Source: Parachitinimonas caeni (GTDB lineage: Bacteria > Pseudomonadota > Gammaproteobacteria > Burkholderiales > Chitinimonadaceae). Taken from it: a DNA stretch of 64,000 nucleotides. Shown here piece by piece: positions 31,014 to 33,377 of the stretch. Where the stretch lies: the NCBI RefSeq assembly GCF_030129945.1, contig NZ_JARRAF010000004.1, positions 62,001 through 126,000 of the forward strand. The letters run 5' to 3'. Within the stretch, counting starts at the first letter, position 1, and each line of letters begins with the position of its first letter. Under the pieces are notes generated by a model. That model worked only from the letters and a program-made list of their open reading frames with translations, searched no databases and was not told the origin of the DNA. Made by a program: the position numbers and the translations under genes.

Positions 31014-31038
31014 CCTTAAATCCCGGCTTCTACCCTAA

Positions 31039-31072
31039 AACGCTGCTATCGCGAGATGGCAGCGTTTTTTTA
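31039..31072 (+). terminator. Terminator after pitA
   Basis: AACGCTGC plus TATC pairs with GATG plus GCAGCGTT around GCGA, then a run of seven T. Confidence 0.9.
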
Positions 31073-31481
31073 TTACCTGAATGGATTGCCTGAGTGCAAA
31101 TCCAATCCGTATCTTGCTACATGCAGTTTGTTTGCTTGCATCTTATTCGCATGTTTTATAGAGATTCTCTGATCGCCCGTATCAGGTATTTGATAGTAAT
31201 GGAAGAGGCAATAATCCCATCTCAATACCTCTATTTTTCTTTGTTTTGGTATACGGGAAAACGCTAATACTTGTTAAAATCCAACGTAGTTTGATTGTTT
31301 GATGGTTTGACAATCATTCTGGTTGAGGTGCGAGCTTGCAAGGGAAATGCTTGTTGCATAAAGCTTATGCCCGTCAGAGTTTTTGATCTGAAAATTCAAT
31401 CATAATTAAGTTATTGATTTCTATAAATATTTAAAACGAAGATGGATCAATGACATATCTTGTTTATTGCGGAGAAACCAA
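31073..31481. other. AT-rich upstream region of the secreted beta-helix gene
   Basis: No gene seen in these 409 bp. The stretch is clearly more AT-rich than its surroundings and has TTTGATTGTTTGATGG-type repeats around 31291-31320. No confident promoter can be assigned. Confidence 0.5.
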
Positions 31482-33377
31482 TTGAATACCCGAATTTCAT
31501 TTCGTGGTACATGGCTCATGCTATGTGCGATTTTCCTTTGTTGCCTTGCAATTCATCGAACCAGTTTTGCAATAGGTCTTGAGTTTGATGGTGTTTACCA
31601 GGCTAACGATGCTGCATCCAAACCCTGCAATGTGGCCAACTTCCTGACAGGTAAGTGTTCTTGCCCAAGTGTTGAGGGACCCGCTTATAACGTTCGTGTG
31701 ATTGGAGACGGTGCTGGGGGAATTGGCGGTTCTAATTTCTTGGCGTGCTCATCCGGCTCCTCGGCGCTGAGTTCATTTGCTGGTCTATATATGCATGATG
31801 ACAGCAAGAACTGCAGGATCGCGAATAAGTTGACAGGGTCCTGTTCCTGCCCAAGCGGTTCCAGTCCAATTGCGTTGCGTACCCTGTTTGATCCCAGTCC
31901 TGGCGTGATTTGGGGTTCGACACTAGCGCTGTGTGCTAAGAGTACGAATGCTCCCGTGGCATTCGGGGGGGCATATCAGATTGATGACAATGCGGTGTGT
32001 CGAAGCGGGAATCCCTACACAAATGGCACTTGCTCGTGCCCTGCAAATTTCCAGGCGCAGCCCACGCGTGCGGTTATTGATCGGGGACCAGGTCAGTATG
32101 GTGGATCTACCATTCACACCTGTTTGCCACAAAAAATAGTCCAGATCTGTAAGTCCTCAACTGGGCAACCGGTGATGGCTGATATTTCCGGCGCTACTCC
32201 TGCGTCAAGAGCGATTCAAACCTGTTTGGATAGCTTGCCAACCGGGGGGGTTCTTGCGTTACCCGCAGGGAAATATCGGGTTGATAGTCAGATTGGCCTG
32301 AAGAAGTCGGTAACGCTCCGCACCCAAGGATTGGAGAATTCAACGACCAGATGCGCCATAGACGGTAATGAGTGTGTGCGTTTGATCGCTGATCCACAGC
32401 TCCTCGTCTATGCAGGGATGTTGAACACGGTTGATGCCAATGGTAAGAGCGGCAGTATCGATAGTAAGACCAATCCACCCAATCGAGTAGATGGGATCAC
32501 AATTGATCACATCGTACTGGACGGCAATCGTGCAAGTCGAAGTGGGAGTGCCGCATATACAAAGTGTAAAGGCGCTGGCGACGGCGGTTTCGATAATCGT
32601 TATGGATTTAATGCAGAATTATTCGGTGACAATCTCACCGTAAAGTATTCGGCATCAATTAACGCTCTGTGCGGTACAGCGCTCGGTTTTTTGGGTAACA
32701 ACGCTACGATTCGCTCAAACACTATTTCAAATAACGGGGTAAATGAACCCAATCTGTGGTCTGACGGATTAACGGCAAGTTATGCGCACAACAGTGTGAT
32801 TGCTGACAACTGGCTGGTTGACAATACCGATGTGGGTCTGATCGTTGGAGGGGGTAGAAACGTTAAAGTGACCGACAACAGGGTAACTCAAGTTGGAAAG
32901 AAAGCTTTCTCTGCCATGATGTTACATAGTTTCTTTCACAATACGCCGGAGGATCGCATCAGTGCCAAAGGATGGGGAGACTTTACCGGGGCTTTAATTA
33001 CCGGTAACACCGTAGATTGTGCATATACCGATACCAATCCAGGTAAGCAGTGCTTTTATGGCTTTAATTTAGGTGACCATGCCTGGACGGCTGGAACGAT
33101 CCCGCTGTGGGGAGGGACTATTGCCAATAACAATATTCGCGGGGGTGTTATCGCGATCAATCTGGATGGGATGGGCGATGCAACTCACCCCACTACGTTG
33201 AGTAATAACACGGCTGTGACAAAACTTAACGTTCTTACTTCCTGCACTGAGGTTCCAAGCGGCAGGGCTATCGCCAGTAGCGCTTATAACTACAATACGG
33301 CAGATTCGAAAGCTGTCTTCAGCCCGATGCCCGCTGGTGTAACCAATCAGGAAACGCACGCTTGTATCGGTAACTAA
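31482..33377 (+). CDS. Secreted protein: three Cys-rich repeats plus parallel beta-helix domain
   Basis: 631 aa from a TTG at 31482, chosen for GGAGA six bases upstream. The next upstream TTG (31467) has none. A signal peptide ends near residue 30. Residues 35-89, 99-151 and 161-214 are three tandem repeats, each about 55 residues: F-x-G-x-Y, a Cys, TG-x-CSCP (TNGTCSCP in the third), then a GGS or GS and a final Cys. Each has four cysteines. From about 220 the sequence is a right-handed beta-helix of pectate-lyase type (GNRASRS, NATIRSNTISNNGV, GGGRNVKVTDNRV). Substrate binding or hydrolysis of a polysaccharide is plausible but unproven. Its base composition is AT-richer than its neighbours. 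Confidence 0.8.
   Translation: MNTRISFRGTWLMLCAIFLCCLAIHRTSFAIGLEFDGVYQANDAASKPCNVANFLTGKCSCPSVEGPAYNVRVIGDGAGGIGGSNFLACSSGSSALSSFAGLYMHDDSKNCRIANKLTGSCSCPSGSSPIALRTLFDPSPGVIWGSTLALCAKSTNAPVAFGGAYQIDDNAVCRSGNPYTNGTCSCPANFQAQPTRAVIDRGPGQYGGSTIHTCLPQKIVQICKSSTGQPVMADISGATPASRAIQTCLDSLPTGGVLALPAGKYRVDSQIGLKKSVTLRTQGLENSTTRCAIDGNECVRLIADPQLLVYAGMLNTVDANGKSGSIDSKTNPPNRVDGITIDHIVLDGNRASRSGSAAYTKCKGAGDGGFDNRYGFNAELFGDNLTVKYSASINALCGTALGFLGNNATIRSNTISNNGVNEPNLWSDGLTASYAHNSVIADNWLVDNTDVGLIVGGGRNVKVTDNRVTQVGKKAFSAMMLHSFFHNTPEDRISAKGWGDFTGALITGNTVDCAYTDTNPGKQCFYGFNLGDHAWTAGTIPLWGGTIANNNIRGGVIAINLDGMGDATHPTTLSNNTAVTKLNVLTSCTEVPSGRAIASSAYNYNTADSKAVFSPMPAGVTNQETHACIGN

Follow-up and report, generated by a model that had tools for sequence, protein, structure and literature searches.

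The window analyzed here, a stretch of 64,000 nucleotides, contains on its forward strand a gene for a secreted protein in which three cysteine-rich repeats precede a right-handed beta-helix (31482–33377). The reading frame spans 31467–33377 and is open from a TTG at 31467. Inspection of the sequence revealed GGAGA approximately 7 nt 5′ of the TTG at 31482, which is for this reason the preferred and probable start; the TTG start of the initial annotation was therefore kept. A signal peptide (MNTRISFRGTWLMLCAIFLCCLAIHRTSFA), recognized by eye in the sequence, is encoded by 31482–31571. The three P2-like modules that follow on the same strand were delimited by repeat alignment and profile, and each contains four cysteines (numbering of product P0001): repeat 1 at 31581–31748 (Cys54, 64, 66, and 94), repeat 2 at 31773–31934 (Cys116, 126, 128, and 156), and repeat 3 at 31959–32123 (Cys178, 189, 191, and 219). 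The right-handed beta-helix part, of about 409 residues with 10 further cysteines, is encoded by 32148–33374, also on the forward strand, and was identified by its match to Pfam PF13229 (E=6e-7).

The flanking genes are ordinary, including those for a phosphate transporter, a solute-binding protein, and an EAL/HDOD protein. The gene has a GC content of 49.6% versus 53–58% for its neighbors, and a GC3 of 0.48 versus 0.61–0.65 for its neighbors on the forward strand. It is thus AT-rich relative to its surroundings, as initially noted, although the difference is mild. No further copy of the module was found elsewhere in the same genome, and a search scoring few candidates per genome found it in none of the 397 other genomes sampled from the phylum. 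Based on the lower GC content, the single copy, and this absence, the acquisition hinted at in the initial annotation is plausible at most. Full-length homologs were found in neither 60 relatives nor 398 genomes sampled from the same phylum, and in neither IMG/VR nor phages; plasmids yielded beta-helix matches only. The intergenic stretch upstream of the gene (31014–31466) is strongly AT-rich, with 36.9% GC, and a 14-pair terminator-like hairpin lies at 31037–31068, after the phosphate transporter gene.

Aligned with one another, the three repeats are 34–38% identical and share 16 invariant columns, including all four cysteines of each repeat. Their pairwise local scores were 100, 74, and 105, versus a maximum of 52 in 2000 shuffling trials. 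An independent profile of 42 modules from other organisms, from which the window's own modules were excluded, recovered all three copies from the six-frame translation of the window (E=1e-28); the next open reading frame scored E=1.9. The beta-helix match to PF13229, at 29.6 bits, exceeds the gathering cut-off of 25.9. No Pfam enzyme family scored above its cut-off, PF12708 being sub-threshold only. None of the curated Pfam and NCBIfam models covers the three repeats. These results bear out the initial description of three tandem four-cysteine repeats, assigned to no named domain, in front of a pectate-lyase-like beta-helix. The repeats are a real domain, so far unnamed; a relative of solved structure nevertheless exists, namely the P2, or MABP, domain of MPEG1.

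When the profile contained no more than the three window repeats, MPEG1/perforin-2 was its sole match in the PDB (E=0.0038). With a profile of 45 bacterial modules, the matches were again MPEG1 chains only (E=8.6e-14), the best chain being the isolated P2 domain, and no other PDB protein was found at E<10. Two stretches of each MPEG1 chain match in order, FGGVYQ...NLLTGDFSCPPGYSP and then one of 23 residues, the match spanning the first ~40 of the 52 profile columns. Reversed decoys with comparable profiles reached E=0.025 at best. According to Ni et al. (PMC6989145), P2 has pseudo-threefold symmetry; each repeat has three strands and a single conserved disulfide between strands, and a hairpin in repeat 1 mediates binding to PS, cardiolipin, E. 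coli lipids, and LPS. It is also named the MABP beta-prism domain (PMC7593815, PMC6753088), and a 2019 structure paper gave the MABP domain of MPEG1 less than 5% sequence similarity to other homologs (PMC6753088). We consider it very probable that the window repeats are bacterial relatives of P2; as homologs of a solved domain, they have a fold that is already known.

Structure prediction led to the same domain. In a template-free AlphaFold2 model covering the three repeats (mean pLDDT 70.7, pTM 0.46), each repeat had a strand and a long hairpin of two strands, and most also had a short strand. P2 crystal structures headed the Foldseek results for this model (E=2.7e-6, prob 1.00) and were the only significant matches, the next unrelated chain having E=0.29. 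Using VIA-align, Z was 6.8 for 6sb1, and one repeat superposed on 6u23 at 1.8 Å over 48 residues. The three-strand fold predicted for the repeat thus agrees with that of P2. The match holds at the level of the repeat but not of the packing: superposition of the whole domain on P2 gave an rmsd of ~15 Å over all three repeats, so the mutual arrangement of the repeats in the model, at a pTM of 0.46, is unreliable.

Further carriers were sought with the DNA pattern N-P-x-T-G-x-C-S-C-P-x-G-[FY] in one genome per species from 84,980 species, which returned 84 stretches. The repeats do occur elsewhere, and the carriers include lipoproteins, a secreted family, PilV/minor-pilin-like proteins, and tail-fiber-like proteins. 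They fall into three groups: three-repeat proteins, single C-terminal pilin modules, and single modules on other shafts. The set comprises 79 proteins with one module, some of them incomplete and lying at the end of a contig or locus, and 17 with three. None contains more than three, and in two proteins scored as having two modules the third was seen by eye. When profiles were built separately from the one-module and the three-module class, each also recovered the opposite class together with the window protein (E=7e-20 and 1e-30). Pattern match L016, from IMG/VR, has no module reading frame and is probably a chance DNA match; L008–L012, obtained with the first profile, lay mostly in stop-containing frames and were left out.

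Among the three-repeat proteins, the lipoproteins of Myxococcota and related lipoproteins have repeats colinear with the window domain (190 versus 191 residues, 42% identity). Repeats 1, 2, and 3 of the closest Myxococcota group pair in order with those of the window, and the triplication therefore predates the split. The module occurs in 9 of the 237 Myxococcota genomes sampled. Three C-terminal P2-like modules are also present in a secreted family of Burkholderiales (L004:316-1845, L007), whose modules lack Cys1 and Cys2 and have Cys3 and Cys4. In cysteine pattern, these modules are closest to MPEG1 repeat 2, and one member comes from the window's own family. All modules examined have Cys3 and Cys4. 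Where Cys2 is missing, Cys1 is missing as well, yet Cys3 and Cys4 are retained; since the relatives were found with a motif requiring Cys2, the co-occurrence of Cys1 and Cys2 is drawn from one lineage lacking both. Single modules also occur on tail-fiber-like or other shafts, including in Patescibacteria. A small secreted or shaft-like protein with a C-terminal module occurs in L066, L067, L095, and L096, from Falkowbacteria, Nomurabacteria, and Parcubacteria of this group, and in L054, from a small-genome bacterium.

In Achromobacter, Bordetella, Pusillimonas, Pseudomonas, and others, single modules end PilV/shufflon-like and pilin-like proteins. The locus of Pusillimonas minor (L038:1944-6166) has the parts of a complete shufflon: a PilV-like gene ending in the module is followed by seven sfx-like repeat copies (CCGGATTGGCAA), and the locus also contains alternative tip cassettes in reversed orientation, several with the module and others with different tips, and a tyrosine-recombinase-like gene. 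The shufflon tips of R64 lack the module. In TP114, recipient recognition is altered by the shufflon tips (PMC9045228), and TcpB and CofB, two minor pilins of type IVb, form homotrimers (PMC9565799). We infer that a trimer with a single module on each chain would be equivalent to one chain with three modules. A tblastn search of plasmids with single modules returned noise apart from a Vibrio pilus operon. On plasmid p48 of Vibrio tubiashii, a small protein with the module is encoded directly after type IV pilus genes (L017:4764-5117); it is annotated as hypothetical only and is a candidate pilus-tip protein.

The best reading of the gene product is a secreted beta-helix protein with an N-terminal P2-like surface-binding domain, to which we assign no activity. 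The N-terminal 190 residues would be a bacterial version of the MABP-type, pseudo-threefold beta-prism domain of perforin-2. Each repeat would contribute about three strands, closed by a disulfide between the conserved Cys3 (of CSCP) and the terminal Cys4, and Cys1 and Cys2 may form a second, local pair. The three repeats are expected to form one threefold unit, a state that other carriers could reach through homotrimerization instead of within one chain. Such a domain could bind a cell-surface ligand (LPS, a glycolipid, a glycan, or an anionic lipid) and would thereby place the C-terminal beta-helix, probably a carbohydrate-active or carbohydrate-binding part, at the cell surface. The occurrence of the module at pilus tips and in perforin-2 suggests a surface-binding module common to bacteria and animals. 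The binding module of the initial annotation is accordingly plausible, with relatives at pilus tips and in the lipid- and LPS-binding P2 of perforin-2, while the polysaccharide-active protein that it suggested is at this point a hypothesis. Taken as a whole, the surface-binding reading is one that we favor with some reserve.

Three other explanations were weighed against it. It is extremely unlikely that the repeats represent an EGF-like or other small disulfide-rich domain acting as a spacer or in protein-protein contacts. The motif C-x-C-P-x-G-[FY] resembles the C-terminal signature of EGF, and this likeness accounts for the scattered weak scores of a few relatives with Pfam EGF models (2e-6 at best, in one of ten members). 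An EGF-like identity was rejected as each repeat has four cysteines instead of six and the window's own repeats have no EGF match; moreover, a PDB search with the family profile recovers MPEG1 P2 whereas EGF chains are absent at E<10, and the model, made of strands and long hairpins, matches P2. We regard as very unlikely that the resemblance to P2 reflects convergence on a short Gly/Cys motif by a domain with a fold of its own and no common descent. The aligned stretch is indeed short and Gly/Cys-rich, covering the first 40 of 52 columns, and the superposition of whole domains is poor. Convergence would leave unexplained that two MPEG1 stretches match in order with a total E of 8.6e-14, far beyond the E=0.025 of reversed decoys and unaccompanied by any further PDB protein at E<10, and that template-free prediction leads to the same P2 domain.

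The remaining explanation accepts the homology and removes the ligand: the domain would be a disulfide-braced cap, a folding aid for the beta-helix, or an oligomerization device. Beta-helix proteins often have caps N-terminal of the helix; the domain here lies directly N-terminal of the beta-helix, and it lacks the lipid-binding hairpin of MPEG1. Other carriers, however, have the module at the distal end of pilins and of lipoproteins that contain no beta-helix, and its swapping by a shufflon fits recognition better than capping. A solely structural role is thus rather unlikely, and surface binding by a P2-like domain remains the preferred reading.

No description of bacterial P2 relatives was found in the open-access literature that we searched. 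More tentatively, the P2 domain of animal perforin-2 may belong to a bacterial family, so far unrecognized, whose members are surface-recognition modules acting in sets of three, either in tandem, as in the window protein, the Myxococcota lipoproteins, and perforin-2, or singly on each chain of a homotrimeric pilus tip or fiber, where they are sometimes swapped by a shufflon. On this view, the domain in animals would go back to an adhesin module of bacteria. Clear bacterial relatives would provide an innate-immune domain of MPEG1 with evolutionary context and simple bacterial models, and P2 would serve as a structural template for some type IVb pilus tips. The relatives also predict a rule of three modules per unit that is open to testing.

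Compared with known systems, the beta-helix part is distantly related to a right-handed beta-helix protein encoded on plasmid Lpl of Novosphingobium sp. PP1Y. The two are 23% identical across 337 residues and share WSDGLT, DNTDVG, and MLH, corresponding to the motifs WxDGxT, DNTDV, and MLH. The Novosphingobium protein lacks the cysteine repeats and is encoded within a glycosyltransferase/ABC transporter cluster, a location that points weakly to polysaccharide. The Myxococcota lipoproteins with three C-terminal repeats (L021, L030, L062, L076, L078, and L026) share the four-cysteine pattern at 30–42% identity; in these, the repeats are preceded by either CG-rich Cys repeats or a linker rich in Pro and Asp, and there is no beta-helix. 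The PilV and type IVb minor-pilin-like proteins of Achromobacter, Bordetella, and Pusillimonas share the module N-P-x-T-G-x-CSCP-x-G-Y ... C but have a single copy, which forms the very C-terminal end of a pilin-type shaft and is sometimes part of a shufflon.

The P2 domain of MPEG1 (PDB 6sb1, 6sb4, and 6u23) and the window domain each consist of three repeats in a secreted or extracellular protein, with the common core F-G-G-x-[YF] ... N-P-x-T ... SCP-x-G-[YF]. MPEG1 P2 has one conserved disulfide per repeat, and the window modules retain the corresponding Cys3 and Cys4, which are presumably bonded. MPEG1 lacks Cys2, whereas each window repeat has a second pair of cysteines. The long lipid-binding hairpin in repeat 1 of MPEG1 has no counterpart in the bacterial modules; in the alignment, the membrane-binding beta-hairpin insertion is absent from window repeat 1 (56 residues). 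Because the hairpin belongs to MPEG1's own first repeat, we claim homology to the domain and not to its mode of lipid binding, and the ligand of the window protein need not be a lipid and may differ. Finally, P2 is joined to a MACPF pore domain in MPEG1, whereas the window domain is joined to a beta-helix.
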